From positions 1 through 34,053 of the forward strand of contig JABFXN010000006.1 of assembly GCA_013361705.1 (NCBI GenBank): a DNA stretch of 34,053 nucleotides. Direction: 5' to 3'. Below are positions 9,393-32,148 of this stretch, one piece after another. Numbering within the stretch: position 1 is the stretch's first letter; every line of letters begins with the position of its first letter. The stretch comes from Acidobacteriaceae bacterium. GTDB taxonomy: Bacteria > Acidobacteriota > Terriglobia > Terriglobales > Acidobacteriaceae. The translations under genes were made by a program, and so were the position numbers. The notes under the pieces are model-generated. The model did no database searches. It was not told where the DNA came from and saw nothing but the letters and a program-made list of their open reading frames with translations.

Positions 9393-9827
9393 CTATTGCA
9401 AACGCTTCTCCAGAACTTCTTTTGCGATCGCGTCCAGCACTCCGTTCAGAAAGTTGATGCTCTCCGGGGCCGAGTACTTGCGTCCGATCTCGAGTGCCTC
9501 ATTGATGATGATTGGCGCGGGCGTTGCACGAAAGGCTAACAGTTCACCGGTAGCCATCCGCAGAAGGTTGCGATCGACGACGGCCATGCGTTCCAGCTTC
9601 CACCGCTCCGAATGGCTCTCAATCAGCTTGTCGATCTCGTCCTGCCGTTCCGTGGCAACGCGAAAGAGATCTTCGGCGAATCCGCGGGCCTCCTCATCGA
9701 CTTCCTTCTCTTCCCGCGAGCTCCAGAAGACCTTGCGGACTTGTTCCGGAGTCTGCTTGCCTAGATCGCTCTGGTAGAGCATCTGCATCGCCATTTCGCG
9801 GCCTTTACGACGTGTTCCTGCTGCCAT
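9393..9827 (-). CDS. nusB: Transcription antitermination factor NusB
   Basis: Binds boxA RNA with NusE (S10) and promotes antitermination of rRNA operons. At 144 residues it has family length. The N-terminus MAAGTRRKGREMAMQMLYQSDL contains the RR-AR-ALQ/MQMLYQ helix typical of NusB, and the C-terminal half carries WKLERMAVVDRNLLRMATGEL and APIIINEALEIGRKYSAPESINFLNGVLD, the most conserved part of the family. The ATG (9827-9825) overlaps the ribH stop as TGATG, indicating translational coupling. The ribH-nusB order is a common bacterial arrangement. It ends shortly before the terminator at 9335-9360. Confidence 0.97.
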   Translation of the reverse strand: MAAGTRRKGREMAMQMLYQSDLGKQTPEQVRKVFWSSREEKEVDEEARGFAEDLFRVATERQDEIDKLIESHSERWKLERMAVVDRNLLRMATGELLAFRATPAPIIINEALEIGRKYSAPESINFLNGVLDAIAKEVLEKRLQ

Positions 9828-10672
9828 CAGGCACCTACCTTCTTACGGATCGACGCCATTTCAATGGCAGCAATCGCTGCTTCAAATCCCTTATTGCCCG
9901 CCTTCACGCCAGCACGGTCCAGAGCCTGCTCCAGTGTCTCGCAGGTCAGCACGCCGAAAGCGTGCGGAATCCCGGTCTCCTGCTGACTCTGCCCGATTCC
10001 CCGCGCCACCTCGTTGTAGATGGCCTCGTAGTGTGCGGTCTCGCCGCGCAGCAGCAGCCCCAGCGTAATGATGCCGTCAAAACGCTTCTGTTCTGCGAGC
10101 GTACGTGCCGCCGAAGGGATCTCCCAGCATCCCGGCACGCGAACGATCTCGATATCGCTACGGCTAACGCCACTGCGCAGCAGCCCATCGAGCGAGCCCT
10201 GCAGCAGGCGATCGGTAATGACGGCATTCCAGCGAGCCACGACAATGGCGAACTTCATGCCGGTAGCAATCAGGTCGCCTTCGATAGCAACCGGCTTGCC
10301 CTTGACCGGGTCGTCCCACTCCCAAAAGCCGATTGTCATGCCGCCAACCGGCTCGGCGGTAAACAGGCGCGACTTCCAGGGTTGCAGAGCAATCTCGGTC
10401 GGCGCGGGCGCTTCATTTGCCGCAGCCCATGCCTTAACGGCCTCGTAGACACCGTCAAGCTGGGTTACTTCTACCAGCAGCGGCGGAGCTTTGGGCTCCC
10501 TGCCGGTCACAAACTCGATATTCCCCAGCGGCGCACGGAACGGAGCACCCTTGCCTCCGTCCAGCTCCCAGCCTTTTCCGGGCTCGAACCCAAGCGCCTC
10601 AAAAAGACTCGTCAACCGCTCAAAATCCTTGGCGGAAGGCACGCTCCGCACCAGCGTCAACCCCTTGATCAT
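9827..10672 (-). CDS. ribH: 6,7-dimethyl-8-ribityllumazine synthase with an N-terminal VOC-like domain
   Basis: The C-terminal half (about residues 135-281) is a complete lumazine synthase: FAIVVARWN substrate loop, VPGCWEIP, the GLLLRGETAHYEAIYNEVARG block with the catalytic-type His, PHAFGVLTCETLEQA and NKGFEAAIAAIEM. It condenses 3,4-dihydroxybutanone phosphate with the ribitylamino-uracil in riboflavin synthesis. Normal RibH is about 150-160 residues; here about 130 extra N-terminal residues read like a VOC/glyoxalase-type domain (LTLVRSVPSAKDFERLTSLF, EALGFEP, NIEFVTGREP, VEVTQLD, EWDDPVKGKPVAI). No stop or frameshift separates the two parts. The start ATG 10672 is only 36 nt from the divergent gene. 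The domain assignment of the N-terminal half is less certain than that of RibH. Confidence 0.93.
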   Translation of the reverse strand: MIKGLTLVRSVPSAKDFERLTSLFEALGFEPGKGWELDGGKGAPFRAPLGNIEFVTGREPKAPPLLVEVTQLDGVYEAVKAWAAANEAPAPTEIALQPWKSRLFTAEPVGGMTIGFWEWDDPVKGKPVAIEGDLIATGMKFAIVVARWNAVITDRLLQGSLDGLLRSGVSRSDIEIVRVPGCWEIPSAARTLAEQKRFDGIITLGLLLRGETAHYEAIYNEVARGIGQSQQETGIPHAFGVLTCETLEQALDRAGVKAGNKGFEAAIAAIEMASIRKKVGA

Positions 10673-22645: not shown

Positions 22646-23197
22646 TTAAACGGAAATGTTCTGCTTGCGACAGGTGCAGTCGATGCAGCCATGCTCGGAG
22701 CAGGCGCCACAGGTTCTGGTCAGCTGCTTCCGCAGCGATGCCCTTGCCCGATGAGCCCTAACGGCGGCATTCCCGGCAGAGATTCCCTGTTCTGCAGCAA
22801 ACTGCTGCAATGGCTGCTCCCCAAGATCGACGGATTTCAATAGATCAGCGTAATTCGCTGGGAGCTGATCCAGAACTTTGCTTAGGCACGCACAGATTTC
22901 ATTTCGAAGATCGGGAGCTGGAATCACCTCGGCTTCCAGCTCTTTTCCCCAGGCCGAAAGCGCCTTGCTCTCCGTCGTCTTACGACGGTACTGGTCGATG
23001 ACAGCATTGCGGAGAATCCGATAAAACCATGCCACCACAGACTCTTCATCCTGCGGTGTCCCCTCGGACTTCAGAGCGCGCAGGTAAGCGCCCTGCAGCA
23101 GGTCCTCGGCAAGCCCCTGGTCCTGGACGCGGCGACGCACAAACCCCAGGAATTGCTGCCTATGCGACAAAAGCGTATTCAGATTTGTCTCAGTCAT
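22646..23197 (-). CDS. ECF sigma factor with cysteine-rich tail (CorE/ECF44-like)
   Basis: A 183-residue sigma factor. Region 2 (about 10-75) includes HRQQFLGFVRRRVQDQGLAEDLLQGAYLRAL and AWFYRILRNAVIDQYRRK; region 4 (about 108-160) has LPANYADLLKSVDLG and GISAGNAAVRAHRARASLRKQL. The C-terminus holds CGAC-SEHG-CIDCTC with Cys at 163, 166, 171, 174 and 176, and the linker has CxC at 102-104. A Cys-rich C-terminal domain plus a linker CxC is the signature of the CorE group of Myxococcus xanthus, where metal binding replaces an anti-sigma. No anti-sigma gene is present here, which fits. The frame is open upstream to 23317, but residues before MTETN do not look like sigma factor and overlap the small peptide gene, so ATG 23197 is chosen. 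A Shine-Dalgarno is lacking. Confidence 0.92.
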   Translation of the reverse strand: MTETNLNTLLSHRQQFLGFVRRRVQDQGLAEDLLQGAYLRALKSEGTPQDEESVVAWFYRILRNAVIDQYRRKTTESKALSAWGKELEAEVIPAPDLRNEICACLSKVLDQLPANYADLLKSVDLGEQPLQQFAAEQGISAGNAAVRAHRARASLRKQLTRTCGACSEHGCIDCTCRKQNISV

Positions 23198-23216
23198 CAC
23201 AAATATTGGATTAGAA

Positions 23217-23247
23217 CCGCGGAGGAACGAATCACGCCCCTCCGCGG
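23217..23247 (-). promoter_or_regulatory. Hairpin between the Cys-rich peptide gene and the sigma gene
   Basis: A perfect 9-bp stem CCGCGGAGG / CCTCCGCGG (23217-23225 and 23239-23247) with a 13-nt loop. On the minus strand it follows the peptide stop (23260) and ends 19 nt before the sigma ATG. It is not followed by a T-run, so it is probably a processing or attenuation hairpin, not a full terminator. It contains GGAGG and its complement CCTCC. Confidence 0.55.
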
Positions 23248-23259
23248 ACGGTTCAAGGT

Positions 23260-23337
23260 CTAACGGCGGCTGACACAGTTGCAAATCGGGCAGGTGCAGG
23301 TGCTTCCGCAGGGGCAATTGTCACATTTCAGACGCAT
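23260..23337 (-). CDS. 25-residue metallothionein-like Cys-rich peptide
   Basis: A very small gene, reading MRLKCDNCPCGSTCTC then PICNCVSRR. Seven of 25 residues are Cys (5, 8, 10, 14, 16, 19, 21), spaced CxxCxCxxxCxCxxCxC, with no aromatic residues, as in metal-thiolate peptides. The ATG at 23337 follows a GGAGAG ribosome binding site at 5-6 nt spacing, which is the best start signal in this neighbourhood. It lies 62 nt upstream of the CorE-like sigma factor on the same strand. The pairing with a sigma factor that has its own Cys-rich tail suggests metal buffering or sensing. Random occurrence of seven Cys in 25 codons with a good ribosome binding site is unlikely, but protein expression is unproven. 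No family name is known to me. Confidence 0.7.
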   Translation of the reverse strand: MRLKCDNCPCGSTCTCPICNCVSRR

Positions 23338-23395
23338 TGGACTCTCCTTTCGACCGGGGCCATCCCGGTTTCTGTCCGTAAAGACGCAGAGAACC

Positions 23396-23441
23396 GTTAC
23401 CGATTACACTTCCTCGTCAAGTTACCTGTGACACTTCTTCG
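23396..23441. repeat. Tandem direct repeats upstream of the Cys-peptide/sigma operon
   Basis: Two 21-bp units, GTTACC-GATT-ACACTTCCTCG (23396-23416) and GTTACC-TGTG-ACACTTCTTCG (23421-23441), match at 17 of 21 positions with a 25-bp period. They lie 59-104 bp upstream of the minus-strand peptide gene and 58 bp before the plus-strand peptidase gene, in the shared divergent spacer. Reading on the minus strand they begin CGAGGAAGTGT or CGAAGAAGTGT and end GGTAAC. They may be regulator or sigma-factor sites. Confidence 0.55.
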
Positions 23442-23498: not shown

Positions 23499-25247
23499 AT
23501 GTTCCGAGCCGCCCTAGCTTTCGTCCTGGTCACCCTCCCGCTGACGGCAATTGGCCAATCAGCGGCCACGGTCCCTCCTGCGTCCGCGAGTTTCTATCCG
23601 CTGAAAGATGTCCATCGGGGGCAGCATGCCACTGCATGGACGGTCTTCGAGGGCATCGCTCCTGAACCAATGGATGTTGAGATCCTCGGCCTGCTCCGCA
23701 ACGCCATCGGGCCGGGACAGGACATGATTCTCGCGCGTCTGCATGGAGCAAAGCCGGAGTACACCGGCGTAGTTGCCGGAATGTCCGGATCCCCGGTATA
23801 CATCGATGGCAAACTGCTGGGTGCGCTCAGCTACCGGATCGGCCAGTTCAGTAAGGAACCCATCGCCGGCATCACGCCCATTGAGCAGATGTGGCAGGTG
23901 CGCAATTCCGCTCTCCCCGTGATTCCTGCCACCCCGGCCGCCACCCCAGGAGCCTCGGATCCTACGCCTCGTCCAACATCCACCTCAGGTGAGATTGTCC
24001 CGATGGAGACCTCACTTGTTTTCACTGGCTTCTCACAAGACACGGTGGCTCTGTTCCGGGATCGCTTTACCGCGCTGGGTCTAAACCCTGTGGCCGGCAT
24101 CGGTTCGGCGTCGCCTGGGGAGAAACAGCCTGAGCCGATCGTGCCCGGCTCGGCCGTCTCCGCCATTCTGGTCGACGGCGATCTCTCGATCGCCGGCACA
24201 TGCACAGTCACGTATGTCGACCCGAAGCAGTTGCTCGCCTGTGGCCACCCGATCACGCAGTACGGCAACATCTCCATGCCGATGACCAAGGCCCAGGTAC
24301 TGGCCACGCTTTCGTCACCCCTGAACTCCTTCAAGATCGTGAATACGACGGAGACCGTCGGCGCCTTCACTCAGGATCGGGCATCGGCCATCCTTGGCCA
24401 GTTCGGCCAGACTGCGGAGATGATTCCCGTCACGGTTGCACTCAATGGCGGCAAGCCGATGCACTTCCGGGTCCTCAACAACCGGGAGCTTACTCCTCAG
24501 GCTCTGCTGGCCTCGGTTTATCAGGCGATTCATGGAACCAATACCTACGCGTCGGAGCTGTCCTATCGGGTGAGTGGAACGATGAACCTCGCCGGTTATC
24601 CGCCGGTAAGCTTCTCTACGGTGGCTGCGCAGACAGAACTCGCTCCTGCCGCGATTGTTGCGGCTCTCGCCGTCAATGACCGCTTCCAACCCATCTATAA
24701 CTCTCCGGCCGAACAGCCAACGATCACCGCTCTGAACCTGAAGGTGGAGACGCTTCCAGGCCGCCGCACAGCCCAGCTTGAAGCAGCGCGCCTCAGCGTC
24801 GTCGAAGCCTCCGCCGGTGACGAGATCACCATCGAGACAACGGTCACTCCCTATCAGAGCGCCGCGAGGATCATTCGTATCCCGGTAAAGCTGCCCTCCA
24901 CGCTCGACCCCGGGCCGGTGCGCATTCTGGTCTCAGATGGAGCTACCCTCGACCGTCTGCTTGCCCAGCAACTGCCCTCGTCGCTTCCCCTGCGCGACAC
25001 CATCACGCAACTCAATGAGCGGCATCCGAACGATCGGGTTTATGTGACAGTGCTGGACCACGCGGCTCAAGCGGTCGTCAACGCGCAGGCGCTACCCCAG
25101 GTCCCACTCTCTATCGCCAATATCTACCAGCCGCTTCAGGACTCGCGGCGTATGAACCTCAACGGAGAAAGCCTGCGCGAAGCCGGCTCAGCCCCCACCG
25201 ATAACGCCCTGACCGGTTCCCAGGTTCTGACTCTGAATATCCGCTAA
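23499..25247 (+). CDS. SpoIVB-type S55 peptidase-like exported protein
   Basis: A 582-residue protein with a signal peptide (MFRAALAFVLVTLPLTAIGQSAA). The region about 33-130 has YPLKDVHRGQHATAWTVFEG and VVAGMSGSPVYIDGKLLGALSY, the hallmark of the SpoIVB peptidase S55 family; by analogy with GDSGGP the nucleophile would be Ser96. The rest is a longer acidobacterial type extension with repeated beta-strand regions (LACGHPITQYGNISMPMT, a second conserved S55-like GHP motif). SpoIVB cleaves in the sporulation pathway, but this organism type does not make spores, so another role is expected. The next gene starts immediately after the stop (TAA then ATG at 25248), indicating co-expression. Divergent from the Cys-peptide/sigma operon. 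Confidence 0.88.
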   Translation: MFRAALAFVLVTLPLTAIGQSAATVPPASASFYPLKDVHRGQHATAWTVFEGIAPEPMDVEILGLLRNAIGPGQDMILARLHGAKPEYTGVVAGMSGSPVYIDGKLLGALSYRIGQFSKEPIAGITPIEQMWQVRNSALPVIPATPAATPGASDPTPRPTSTSGEIVPMETSLVFTGFSQDTVALFRDRFTALGLNPVAGIGSASPGEKQPEPIVPGSAVSAILVDGDLSIAGTCTVTYVDPKQLLACGHPITQYGNISMPMTKAQVLATLSSPLNSFKIVNTTETVGAFTQDRASAILGQFGQTAEMIPVTVALNGGKPMHFRVLNNRELTPQALLASVYQAIHGTNTYASELSYRVSGTMNLAGYPPVSFSTVAAQTELAPAAIVAALAVNDRFQPIYNSPAEQPTITALNLKVETLPGRRTAQLEAARLSVVEASAGDEITIETTVTPYQSAARIIRIPVKLPSTLDPGPVRILVSDGATLDRLLAQQLPSSLPLRDTITQLNERHPNDRVYVTVLDHAAQAVVNAQALPQVPLSIANIYQPLQDSRRMNLNGESLREAGSAPTDNALTGSQVLTLNIR

Positions 25248-27398
25248 ATGAAGCTAAAGATTCTATCTCTCCTACAAATTGCTGCTGTTACTACACTTAG
25301 CGCACAAGGAACACGTCAGTGGACACAGTCTCGCTATGACGAGTTCGAACGCGGCAAACCGAACGGAGTCGCGATCCGCTCTGATGGCAGCTTGTTGCCG
25401 GCACCGTCTACTCGCCTCGTCTTTACCAGTGATGGCAACTACCTGTGGACCACTGCGGTAGATGCCGCCGGCAATACCTACCTGGGAAGCGGAGCTCTTT
25501 CTGGCGGAACCGCAGCCGTCCTGAAAATAGACGGCCAAGGAAAATCCGAAAAGATATTCGAAACAAAAGAGATGGCTATCCAGGCAGTGCGCGTCGCCGC
25601 AAATGGAAAGCTTTATGCCGCTACCTCTCCGGATGGCAAGATCTATCGGATTGATGGGCCCGGCCAATCGTCGGTGGTCCTGGACACAACAACCCTTCCC
25701 GAGAAACCTAAGTACCTGTGGGATATCGGGTTGTCCCCCAAGGGCGAGATTTATGTCGCTACTGGAGCTCCAGCAGCCGTTTATAAGCTGACTCCCGGCG
25801 GGAAACCCGAGCTCCTGCTCAGGTCGGGCGACCAGCATATTCGTTGCCTGCTGCTCGGTCCTGACGGAACGCTCTATGCGGGCTCCGATGGCGCGGGTGT
25901 GATCTACCGCATCAAGCCGGGTGAGAAGCCATTTGCAATTTATGACGCACCGCGGCACGAGATTACAGCCCTGGCTCTGGGTGCTGATGGCATGCTCTAT
26001 GCGGCAGGCGTCGGCGACAAGCGCACCCCAAACCTTCCTCCCCTTCCTGTACAGGGGAATCAAGCGGTCTCGGTCACCATTCTTCCCGGCTCGGCTAACG
26101 CCGCATCCTCCAACACCCTGATCCCCGAGGGATCAGAGATCTACCAGATCGCTCCGGATGGAACGCCACGCCGCTTGCTAACGCTGCGCGAAGATGTGAT
26201 CTATGCCCTCACGATGCGCAGCGGCCAGCTACTCATCGCCACCGGCAATCGCGGACGCATCTACGCCACGGATCCTGCAGTTCCTGGTGTCTTCACGGAT
26301 ATCGCCCACCTTGACGCCTCTCAGGGAATGGCTTTCGCTCCAACGGCAACTGGAGTCTACATCGCGACCAGCAACTCGGGCCGGCTGTTCCGCCTGGAAG
26401 ACAAACCGGCGGTGAGTAATACGTACCTATCCGATGTTTTTGACGCCGGCATCTTTTCGCAATGGGGCCGGATCGAGCTGCGGGGGTCCCAGACGGCGGA
26501 GCTCTACCTCCGTTCCGGAAACGTCGAGAACCCTGAAATCAACTGGACCGATTGGACAAAGGTCACCCCAAATACAAAACCTTCTACTTTAACGAACGCT
26601 CGCTATGCTCAATGGAAAGCGGTACTTAGCCCCGATTCCAAAATCGACTCGGTGACGTTGAACTACCTTCCTAAAAACCTGGCTCCAATGGTCGACGACC
26701 TGGTAGTGCAGGGGGGAGCCCGAATGAATCCGCAACCTGCGGCACAAGGGCAGACGGTACAGATCACATTCCCGCGCGCGAGTGCGAATCCCGGATTCGT
26801 CATCCCCCAGGACCCGAACCCTCCCTTGATCGCACAGAAGGACAAGAACTCGATCACCGCCCGGTGGACGTCCCATGACGATAACGGGGACAACCTGATG
26901 TATTCGATCTATTACCGGGGAGACAACGAGACAACCTGGCGATTGCTGAAAGACCAGATCAACGAAAAGTATTACTCATGGGACGCGGCGCAGCTTCCGG
27001 ATGGAGGCTATACGCTGCGGGTTGTCGCATCTGACGCGCCTAGCCATAATCCCGGTGAGACTCTCACGGGAGAACGGGTCAGTGAACGTTTCGAAGTCGA
27101 CACCACGCCTCCTGTTCCAGGCCAGTTGACGGCAACGATGGCGAATAACCAGATTCACGCTTTGCTGGAAGCGACCGACGCCACTTCAGCCATTGATCAC
27201 GCCGAGTATTCTCTCGATGCGGGACCGTGGCAGTATCTGGAACCCGCAGGCAAACTGTCGGACTCGCCCACGGAGCACTACGACTTTACCCTGCCGGTAA
27301 CCGGATCGGCGGCTGAACACACCCTGGCGGTGCGGATCTACGACCGGTTTGAAAACGTAGCAACCGCGAAGACGGTTATTCGGTCCGCCGGTCGATAA
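25248..27398 (+). CDS. Exported beta-propeller protein with C-terminal Fn3-like repeats
   Basis: A 716-residue protein with a signal peptide (MKLKILSLLQIAAVTTLSAQG). Residues about 50-380 show NHL/YVTN-like repeats: SDGSLLPAPSTRLVFTSDGNYLW, ANGKLYAATSPDGKIYRIDG, LSPKGEIYVATGAP, GPDGTLYAGSDGAGVIYRI, and GADGMLYAAGVGD, giving a six- to seven-bladed propeller. Residues about 530-620 contain ARWTSHDDNGDNLMYSIYYRGDNETTWRLL, a fibronectin type III-like segment, and the end (about 650-716) has another Ig-like segment. It begins directly after the S55-like gene, so the two are translated together; the protein may be its partner or substrate (inference). Its last 23 nt overlap the end of fliM on the other strand. 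Confidence 0.85.
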   Translation: MKLKILSLLQIAAVTTLSAQGTRQWTQSRYDEFERGKPNGVAIRSDGSLLPAPSTRLVFTSDGNYLWTTAVDAAGNTYLGSGALSGGTAAVLKIDGQGKSEKIFETKEMAIQAVRVAANGKLYAATSPDGKIYRIDGPGQSSVVLDTTTLPEKPKYLWDIGLSPKGEIYVATGAPAAVYKLTPGGKPELLLRSGDQHIRCLLLGPDGTLYAGSDGAGVIYRIKPGEKPFAIYDAPRHEITALALGADGMLYAAGVGDKRTPNLPPLPVQGNQAVSVTILPGSANAASSNTLIPEGSEIYQIAPDGTPRRLLTLREDVIYALTMRSGQLLIATGNRGRIYATDPAVPGVFTDIAHLDASQGMAFAPTATGVYIATSNSGRLFRLEDKPAVSNTYLSDVFDAGIFSQWGRIELRGSQTAELYLRSGNVENPEINWTDWTKVTPNTKPSTLTNARYAQWKAVLSPDSKIDSVTLNYLPKNLAPMVDDLVVQGGARMNPQPAAQGQTVQITFPRASANPGFVIPQDPNPPLIAQKDKNSITARWTSHDDNGDNLMYSIYYRGDNETTWRLLKDQINEKYYSWDAAQLPDGGYTLRVVASDAPSHNPGETLTGERVSERFEVDTTPPVPGQLTATMANNQIHALLEATDATSAIDHAEYSLDAGPWQYLEPAGKLSDSPTEHYDFTLPVTGSAAEHTLAVRIYDRFENVATAKTVIRSAGR

Positions 27399-30699: not shown

Positions 30700-32148
30700 T
30701 TACAGCCTTGAGCTCAGTGGAAAGGGATTATCAGGCCATGTGATCGGTTGCCAATCGCTGGAGCCGGCAACAGCCGCATGCAATAAAGCGCTTCCGATTC
30801 CGGCGGCACCAAACGAATATCCCGTCTCCCACGTATCGAACGGCGCAGGAACGTGGCTATAGCTGTCATACCAACGGCTGCGGTGACCGTAGAAGTCCAT
30901 CATCTGGATAATCTCCTGCCCGATACGATCCACCGCTTCCCTGTACCGCGTATCCCGTGTCACCTTCCCCATGCCCAGCAGGAATTCCATTACGCCCGCC
31001 TTGCCCGAGTGCTGGCAGAGCGAATTCTCTTCTGGCGCCATCGTCGTCAACGGGCGCTGTAGTGCACTCAGAATGCCGTCAGCCAGCTTCTCCGACATCT
31101 GGAAGAAGGCATTATCGGCGGTAACTTTGTGCAGCTGATAAAACAGGCGCGCAGTTCCGGCTGCTCCCTCGCTGAAGCCGATTTGAAACGCGGCCGGCTG
31201 CGCAGGAACGCAATACGGAATCAGAACGCCTTCCTTCTGCCGGCAGGCAACACGTTCAATACGAAGTGCGCCTTCGCGGGCCGCCTGCAGATAGTCAGCC
31301 TGTTCGGTATCCTCATACGCCCGAGCCAGTGTGTAGGCAATGCCCGCGGCGCCGTACTCAAAGTTGGGGACATAAGTTCCATCTGTCTGCTGAATCCGGC
31401 GGGATGGCAGTTCACTCGGGTGGACGCCGGTGCCCGAATCCTGCAAAGCAACTAATCGGTCGGCACCCTGCGCTGCTACATGACGGTAGCCGGAGGCATT
31501 CAGGATCTGCGCGGCATACAGCAGATAGAGGATGACGCTGCTATCGCCCGCGATGCTCGATGTCTCAGACCAGCTAACACCGTCACTGTCGCGGATTGCT
31601 GACTCGCTCAGATAACCGGTGATGGCGTCTGCCGCATGTTTAATGGATGTGTCTCGACTGATGCGCCAAGTCTCCGTCAGCGCAAACCCCACGCCGGCCA
31701 GTCCATCGTAGAACGAGTGCCTGGTCCCGGGAGTTGCCTCCGGAGCCCGCAGCATCTGCGGCCAGGTAGCGGAGAGAAAGCGGGCGCCACTTACCGCATC
31801 TTCAAGGTAAGTGGCGTCTCCGGTAGCTGTATACATTTCAAGAAGGAAGAGGAGAATTCCCGCGCTTCCCCGGCGAATGTTTCTGCTTTGCACCGCGGAG
31901 AGCTCGCGGCTGGGATGAATCGGCTCGGGCAGCCAATACTTCCCCTGCGATGTCTTCATCTCTCCGGCACGGATCCACCGCGCAGCTTCCCTGGCGCCAT
32001 GTAACAAATCGTTACGCGCATGTGCAGACGGCATCTTTGCCGGAACCGCCAACGCCGGCAGCGAGCAGCCCACAACCGCGGAAGCAAATGCGCTCTTGAG
32101 AAACGAACGCCTCGATCGATCCTGCTGCAGCAGATGTAACCGGTACAC
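30700..32148 (-). CDS. Tat-exported LanC-like protein
   Basis: 482 residues with a (alpha/alpha)6-barrel LanC-like pattern: repeated glycine-rich turns at RRGSAGILLFLLEMY (92-106), SFYDGLAGVGFALT (145-158), FEYGAAGIAYTLARAY (263-278), FSEGAAGTARLFYQL (325-339), CQHSGKAGVMEFLLGM (378-393) and YSFGAAGIGSALLH (444-457). The N-terminus has the twin-arginine motif RSRRSFLK (11-18), then a hydrophobic stretch with VVGC (Cys28), so it is exported and perhaps a lipoprotein. The canonical zinc ligands of LanC are incomplete: the Cys of the WCYG motif is absent and CH is CQH. It follows the CHRD gene after 44 nt, with a GTG start preceded by AAGGAG. Lanthionine synthesis is not implied; no lantibiotic precursor is seen. 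Confidence 0.85.
   Translation of the reverse strand: MYRLHLLQQDRSRRSFLKSAFASAVVGCSLPALAVPAKMPSAHARNDLLHGAREAARWIRAGEMKTSQGKYWLPEPIHPSRELSAVQSRNIRRGSAGILLFLLEMYTATGDATYLEDAVSGARFLSATWPQMLRAPEATPGTRHSFYDGLAGVGFALTETWRISRDTSIKHAADAITGYLSESAIRDSDGVSWSETSSIAGDSSVILYLLYAAQILNASGYRHVAAQGADRLVALQDSGTGVHPSELPSRRIQQTDGTYVPNFEYGAAGIAYTLARAYEDTEQADYLQAAREGALRIERVACRQKEGVLIPYCVPAQPAAFQIGFSEGAAGTARLFYQLHKVTADNAFFQMSEKLADGILSALQRPLTTMAPEENSLCQHSGKAGVMEFLLGMGKVTRDTRYREAVDRIGQEIIQMMDFYGHRSRWYDSYSHVPAPFDTWETGYSFGAAGIGSALLHAAVAGSSDWQPITWPDNPFPLSSRL

Follow-up and report, generated by a model that had tools for sequence, protein, structure and literature searches.

The peptide gene and the sigma factor gene

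The window, that is, the whole stretch of 34,053 nucleotides from an Acidobacteriaceae bacterium that was analysed here, contains on its reverse strand a gene of only 25 codons, located directly upstream of a gene that encodes an ECF sigma factor of the CorE type. The two genes have the same orientation, and 62 nt separate the peptide gene from the ATG of the sigma gene. The features of this locus, all on the minus strand, are the following.

22646-23197 (-): gene of a CorE-type ECF sigma factor, 183 aa, with the Pfam domains Sigma70_r2 and r4_2, a CxC motif and a Cys-rich domain (CRD)
22670-22711 (-): CRD, C163-x2-C166-x4-C171-x2-C174-x-C176, with the spacing of CorE (copper)
22886-22894 (-): linker motif Cys102-Ala-Cys104, with neither Cys varying among 32 aligned proteins
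23217-23247 (-): G+C-rich hairpin with the arms CCGCGGAGG and CCTCCGCGG, between the peptide gene and the sigma gene, with no clear T-run
23260-23337 (-): gene of a seven-Cys metallothionein-like peptide, 25 aa, recognised by conservation, linkage and selection
23342-23348 (-): ribosome-binding site AGGAGAG, 4 nt before the ATG of the peptide gene, with similar sites in relatives
23353-23369 (-): leader stem-loop ACCGGG-ATGGC-CCCGGT, between the promoter and the ribosome-binding site
23383-23408 (-): predicted CorE-type promoter, with the -35 element TGTAAT at 23403-23408, a 16-nt spacer and the -10 element CGTC at 23383-23386

The peptide, MRLKCDNCPCGSTCTCPICNCVSRR, has seven Cys (28% of its residues) with the spacing CxxCxCxxxCxCxxCxC. 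It has the form of a metallothionein, being short and Cys-rich with CxC and CxxC motifs. It is the sole ORF of the whole window that passes a filter for Cys-rich mini-ORFs, and a simulation of 2.04 Mb that follows the base order of the window yields none. The coordinates, strand and Cys spacing of this gene, which a preliminary description of the DNA had reported, were confirmed, and so were its ribosome-binding site and the 62-nt distance to the sigma gene. Judged by its sequence and by that of its relatives, the 25-codon gene is genuine, and it is probably translated.

Neither Pfam nor NCBIfam holds a family that matches the peptide at E≤10. Among 36 members of the peptide group, no match was found to Pfam at E≤1e-3 or to NCBIfam at E≤0.1; three Pfam metallothionein models are each weakly resembled by one of these members, with a best E of 0.0029. 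The peptide itself matches no model of a described metallothionein family. Ec-1 of wheat is a zinc protein. Its structure (PDB 2kak) was the better of two solved-structure matches at E≤10, and the first part of Ec-1 has the six-Cys core of the peptides, CxCGxxCxCxxCxC; however, Ec-1 is a plant protein, and the similarity, with E 0.065 for the profile and 6.2 for the peptide, is too weak to establish homology. A likeness to the copper metallothionein of Neurospora crassa was not borne out, as this protein was absent from the two solved-structure matches at E≤10.

CorE needs no anti-sigma factor to sense copper. CorE and CorE2 of Myxococcus xanthus, formerly ECF44, are now placed in ECF238. The sigma factor of the window matched PF04542 (E 8e-13), PF08281 (E 9e-6) and, besides these, only the related PF04545; it is composed of the sigma2 and sigma4 domains only. 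It carries the Cys pattern of the CorE type, with both the linker CxC and the C-terminal CRD. The preliminary description had listed Cys163, 166, 171, 174 and 176 together with the linker CxC, and all of them are present in the 183-aa protein; the Cys of the CRD are invariant in the 32 aligned sigma proteins. The CorE-type signature that had been claimed for this protein is also general among its kin: in the best 80 of 328 named relatives, the linker CxC is found at 80 of 80 loci and the full CRD with the CorE spacing C-x2-C-x4-C-x2-C-x-C at 79. This spacing is that of Cys181, 184, 189, 192 and 194 of CorE, of which Cys189 matters most when copper activates the factor (PMC3107203; this and the other papers cited here were available in part). 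In CorE2, which responds to Cd and Zn, the metal specificity is set by an additional Cys that immediately follows the first Cys of the motif as quoted in PMC9023288 (available part). A CorE2-type Cys after the second Cys of the CRD was found neither in the sigma factor of the window nor at any of the 79 loci with a matching CRD. Sigma factors with a CRD were already listed for four Acidobacteria in the available part of the CorE paper (PMC3107203).

Within the same genome, the closest other sigma factor is distant (E 1e-10). The immediate neighbours of the sigma gene are the peptide gene, a gene for an acidobacterial VWA protein (TIGR03436) and a divergent gene (23499-25247, plus strand) for a 582-aa protein with a weak likeness to the SpoIVB peptidase S55; no anti-sigma gene was found among them, and no ribosome-binding site is visible before the sigma gene. 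The likeness to CorE and CorE2 extends to this missing anti-sigma match and to the copper genes found under a shared promoter at related loci (see below), but the sigma gene of the window sits behind a metallothionein-like gene. Elsewhere in the window, a 482-aa protein (30700-32148, minus strand) resembles lanthionine synthetases (LanL and LanM models, E ~1e-25, below the cut-off) and has, by eye, a twin-Arg-like N-terminus. A 281-aa protein (9827-10672, minus strand) has, also by eye, a lumazine-synthase-like C-terminal part and an extra, glyoxalase-like N-terminal part.

Occurrence of the peptide gene and selection on its codons

The peptide gene was sought in three samples, which overlap in organisms. 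In 120 genomes of the family, the sigma gene was found at E≤1e-20 in 15 genomes and at 16 loci, nine of which have a Cys-rich mini-gene beside it. A profile built from these nine sigma-adjacent peptides, a design that favours adjacent matches, gave 10 matches at E≤1e-3 in the same 120 genomes, and nine of the 10 adjoin a sigma gene. The remaining peptide gene (genome G034, C6:161104-161175, minus strand, locus L161) lies 131 kb from its sigma gene. Three further matches of the profile in these genomes are weak (E 0.04-0.09). In the phylum sample of 297 genomes, 37 were sigma-positive and 25 new loci were read; two of these, L065 and L066, which are without the CxC/CRD, were dropped, and a mini-gene is present at 10 of the remaining 23.

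The third sample consists of the 80 best loci from a scan of named genomes that gave 328 sigma relatives. With a strict filter, a mini-gene was found at most 400 nt upstream of the sigma gene in 27 of these 80 loci, against a background of a single match in the 493,671 bp of flanking sequence that lie beyond 1.5 kb (expected number 0.06). In all, 35 of the 80 loci have a mini-gene, which is co-directional with the sigma gene in 22, divergent in 11 and elsewhere within 1.4 kb in two. Of these 35, 32 were found by script, with starts set by the ribosome-binding site, and three (L103, L109 and L140) by eye, having been recognised in the promoter-match output; L143, whose CRD is aberrant and which lacks a promoter match, is counted among the 32. 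At the other 45 of the best 80 loci, no peptide gene was found in the stretch searched. The short form of the peptide has 22-26 aa, and some members consist of just 22 residues. Conservation of the peptide upstream of CorE-type sigma genes, which the preliminary description had proposed as a check, was accordingly looked for in related genomes and found in all three samples (9/16, 10/23 and 35/80 loci).

The layout of the two genes follows kinship. On a tree of 81 sigma proteins, with the layout coded as three labels, six changes suffice, compared with a mean of 29.8 when the labels are shuffled. The part of the tree that includes the window has 26 rows, of which 21 are co-directional, four are without the peptide and one is divergent, although support for the fork that defines it is weak (84/32). 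Of the 11 divergent rows, nine belong to one group of 11 rows, made up mostly of Bryobacterales-like or unplaced Terriglobia, plus one Nitrospira. One Gemmatimonadales row is co-directional, and none of the 15 rows labelled Myxococcota has the peptide. The nearest named kin of the window is Terriglobus albidus (L068), which has the same gene pair.

Selection was examined in three groups of related peptides. The Cys codons are kept 7/7 in each group, with swaps between TGC and TGT at four, six and three of the seven, while amino-acid changes are seen at 11 of 17, 10 of 14 and four of 15 of the other codons. The pS exceeds the pN in 25 of 26 pairs, which are not independent; for the window against L068, pS is 0.26 and pN is 0.02, and for the window against L067, there are zero silent changes and one replacement. 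A lack of conservation or of purifying selection, which the preliminary description had named as findings that would speak against the gene, was looked for and not found. The peptide could still be read as an open frame that arose by chance ahead of the sigma gene, since it has just 25 codons and no family match. We reject this reading and give it next to no chance, in view of the adjacency under the strict filter, the selection on codons and the simulation without passes; conservation, the ribosome-binding site and the promoter described below also argue against it.

Shared promoter, copper genes and RNA features

An alignment of near relatives suggested a promoter pattern, TGTAA[T/G]-N16(17)-CGT[C/T]. 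It is present upstream of 33 of the 35 peptide genes of the best 80 of 328 loci, that is, of 25 of the 27 found with the strict filter and of all eight others, and the spacer is exactly 16 in 24 of the 25 promoter-bearing strict-filter genes. L069, L011 and L012 have CGTG instead of CGT[CT]. Two biases lie outside the pattern searched for: a G or C precedes TGTAA in 64 of 64 sites, and a C stands three bases behind CGT[CT] in 55 of 64. The peptide gene of G034, 131 kb from its sigma gene, also has the promoter. When the variant TGTAA[TGA] was allowed, a match was found in the fetched stretch at 30 of the 38 sigma loci drawn from the genome samples, most of them before a peptide gene, a Cu-ATPase/YHS gene or an HMA gene. 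These sites come from loci picked for their sigma gene, a point that counts against the reading given below, and the pattern is a predicted target of this sigma factor.

In the window, a looser form of the pattern gave two matches where 0.5 are expected; the second (25944-25967, spacer 14) was set aside, as it lies inside the ORF 25248-27398. A strict match at L004, another ECF locus of the same genome, was set aside as chance because no gene with a ribosome-binding site lies behind it. A promoter profile made from sequence alone was insensitive on genomes and did not return the known site of the window; therefore a genome-wide regulon was not obtained, and our promoter counts refer to loci inspected. 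At four Bryobacterales-like loci (L127:5630-6994, L144, L111 and L110), a gene just downstream of the sigma gene lies behind a promoter-like match and encodes 423-456 aa, including a His-rich stretch and the phrase FGSGTSVNPASW (FSSGTSLNPASW in L110); no Pfam or NCBIfam model matches the L127 copy at E≤1e-5. Small CCCH-ending proteins are encoded behind a CorE-type promoter match downstream of the sigma gene at L125 (5615-5779) and L099, and are perhaps another thiol-rich target.

What is new here is one predicted promoter that is common to peptide genes and copper genes. At other CorE-type loci it precedes genes for YHS/HMBD Cu-ATPases, CopZ-like HMA proteins and cupredoxin-like proteins, the families having been assigned from chosen examples, in which the CopZ models matched below their cut-offs. 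In the genome of the window itself, it precedes the gene of an 817-aa CopA-type ATPase on another contig, C314. This ATPase scores 600.6 bits with the model of copper-translocating ATPases, TIGR01511 (cut-off 397), and 390.8 bits with the cadmium-family model, whose cut-off of 313.5 it also passes. It has the motifs CPC, YN-x4-P and M-x-x-S-S, which we take to speak against Zn/Cd specificity. The shared promoter, which in this genome also precedes the CopA-type ATPase gene, suggests a regulatory link and points to copper, which is probably the metal of this system.

The promoter was found at six of 22 CopA-type loci in 19 sigma-bearing genomes and at none of 30 in sigma-lacking genomes (Fisher p 0.0037, a value that overstates independence because three of the six positives, G000, G347 and G384, are close relatives). 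Both sets were hand-picked from the family and phylum samples. The first comprised 20 genomes, reduced to 19 as G293 has no ATPase match, and G355 contributes three and G015 two of the 22 loci; the second comprised 34 of the genomes shown without a sigma match, with 36 ATPase matches, of which 30 were examined, three of them with less than 1500 bases upstream. In 13 of the 19 sigma-bearing genomes, the promoter was not found at the ATPase; the regulon therefore differs among species and copA is not always a member. The strict promoter was also not found in the stretches fetched at six PF07732 (multicopper oxidase) loci of the genome of the window.

The hairpin behind the peptide gene folds more strongly than expected, with a z of -3.5 in the window and between -2.7 and -4.3 in a set made up of the window and eight co-directional relatives selected for comparison. 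Against 60 shuffles per gene, the RNA behind the peptide gene folds more strongly (z≤-2) in 30 of 36 cases, which include nine of the 11 divergent layouts; no significant hairpin was found behind the distant peptide gene of G034 (z -0.7). The hairpin at 23217-23247 looks like a terminator or attenuator, or a stabiliser of the peptide message. In the leader, a stem longer than in shuffles (p≤0.05) was found in 24 of 44 distinct peptide leaders, compared with seven of 46 leaders where the same promoter precedes another kind of gene, one of the seven being that of the CopA-type gene of this genome. The L067 leader has the same stem as the window (6 bp, p 0.035). Across many peptide leaders and some cupredoxin-like and CopZ-like leaders, the sequence shifts and the stem is kept. 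Our guess is that this stem-loop may protect the mRNA.

A putative copper-response operon and its alternatives

We interpret the window as an autoregulated copper-response operon, in which a minimal copper metallothionein would be commanded by a CorE-type sigma factor and would damp this factor by removing copper; we put the probability of this reading at roughly 0.78. A rise of cytoplasmic copper would lead to its binding by the C-terminal Cys-rich domain and the linker CxC of the sigma factor. The active factor would direct RNA polymerase to TGTAA[T/G]-N16-CGT[C/T] before the peptide gene and would use the same promoter at the gene of the CopA-type copper-exporting ATPase elsewhere in the genome. 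Many transcripts may stop at the hairpin behind the peptide gene, or gain protection from it, and at co-directional loci the remaining ones would read through into the sigma gene. The seven thiols of the peptide would bind copper, probably Cu(I), and buffer it until its export by the ATPase. The peptide would in this way lower free copper, and the sigma factor would be switched off again. The functional pair proposed in the preliminary description gains support from the linkage, the shared promoter and the CopA-type ATPase under it, and its suggestion that the peptide buffers metal fits the evidence; delivery of the metal, which it named as the alternative, is treated below as a less likely role.

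The same module could instead serve zinc or cadmium, with a CorE2-like response of the sigma factor and a Zn/Cd metallothionein as the peptide. The Cys core shared with part of wheat Ec-1 would agree with this, weak as that match is (profile E 0.065, peptide E 6.2), and so would the score of the ATPase above the cadmium cut-off. However, the ATPase scores far higher with the copper model (600.6 against 390.8 bits) and has the three motifs named above, the other genes under the promoter are of the CopZ-like, cupredoxin and Cu-ATPase kinds, and the specificity Cys of CorE2 (PMC9023288, available part) is absent from 79 of 79 matching CRDs. On the CRD spacing and the ATPase scores, we consider zinc or cadmium unlikely. 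A role of the peptide as a copper chaperone, which would hand copper to the sigma factor or to the ATPase and not store it, would suit the genetic pairing with the sigma gene and the similar thiol-rich sites of the two proteins; the Cys content of 28%, the lack of a match to a chaperone family and the 45 of the best 80 of 328 sigma loci without a peptide gene nearby argue against it and leave it quite improbable.

It is about as improbable that the peptide is a cis-acting leader ORF, whose nascent chain would sense the metal and, with the hairpin, set the output of the sigma gene. Copper-responsive leader ORFs of such a kind exist: CruR (DUF2946) is a short Cys-bearing ORF that heads a copper-homeostasis operon (PMC9426467, available part). 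The peptide of the window is likewise a short Cys-rich ORF at the head of an operon, followed by a strong hairpin and by a sigma gene without a visible ribosome-binding site, and its co-directional layout is in itself compatible with such a role. CruR, however, acts in cis, whereas the peptide genes are also found divergent from the sigma gene (11 of the best 80 of 328 loci), elsewhere within 1.4 kb (two of 80) or, in G034, 131 kb away with Cys-rich peptide and promoter still kept. At those loci the peptide gene cannot be a leader of the sigma gene, which disfavours this reading. The strong folding in nine of 11 divergent layouts also speaks against it, and the peptide, having no Pfam or NCBIfam match at E≤10, has none to DUF2946.

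We therefore return to the copper metallothionein. The peptide most likely works like a metallothionein and stands, in the profile comparisons, outside any described metallothionein family. SmtA is a small thiol-rich bacterial metallothionein under a metal regulator. MymT of M. tuberculosis is a metallothionein controlled by RicR (PMC10141476, available part). The peptide, with its putative metal binding, is likewise small, thiol-rich and under an apparent metal regulator, but it differs from both in its lack of a Pfam or NCBIfam match, in its apparent control by a sigma factor and in its short form of 22-26 aa. Metallothioneins joined to CorE-type sigma factors were not found in the available parts of the literature searched, which included PMC3107203, PMC8999054, PMC10141476, PMC8103513, PMC9023288 and PMC9426467, and an earlier mention is possible; the word metallothionein is absent from the text of the CorE paper (PMC3107203). 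It is a tentative idea, to which we give somewhat less than even odds, that the peptides are minimal copper metallothioneins of bacteria, a large group not described before, and that in co-directional loci they replace an anti-sigma factor.

If this idea is correct, the sigma factor would make its own competitor for copper, and its activity would be set by the contest of two thiol clusters encoded in one operon. A metallothionein-like gene placed before the sigma gene, with a promoter common to copper export genes, would make for a feedback loop that is direct and can be tested. The promoter code TGTAA[T/G]-N16-CGT[C/T] would then predict a copper regulon in many Acidobacteria; in the same genome it has already led to a further likely member, the CopA-type ATPase on another contig. 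The peptides would add to the bacterial metallothioneins a group, spread over Acidobacteria and found at one Nitrospira and one Gemmatimonadales locus, that escapes the profile libraries used (Pfam and NCBIfam). They suggest that this soil bacterium and many of its relatives buffer copper by a simple means that has been overlooked until now.
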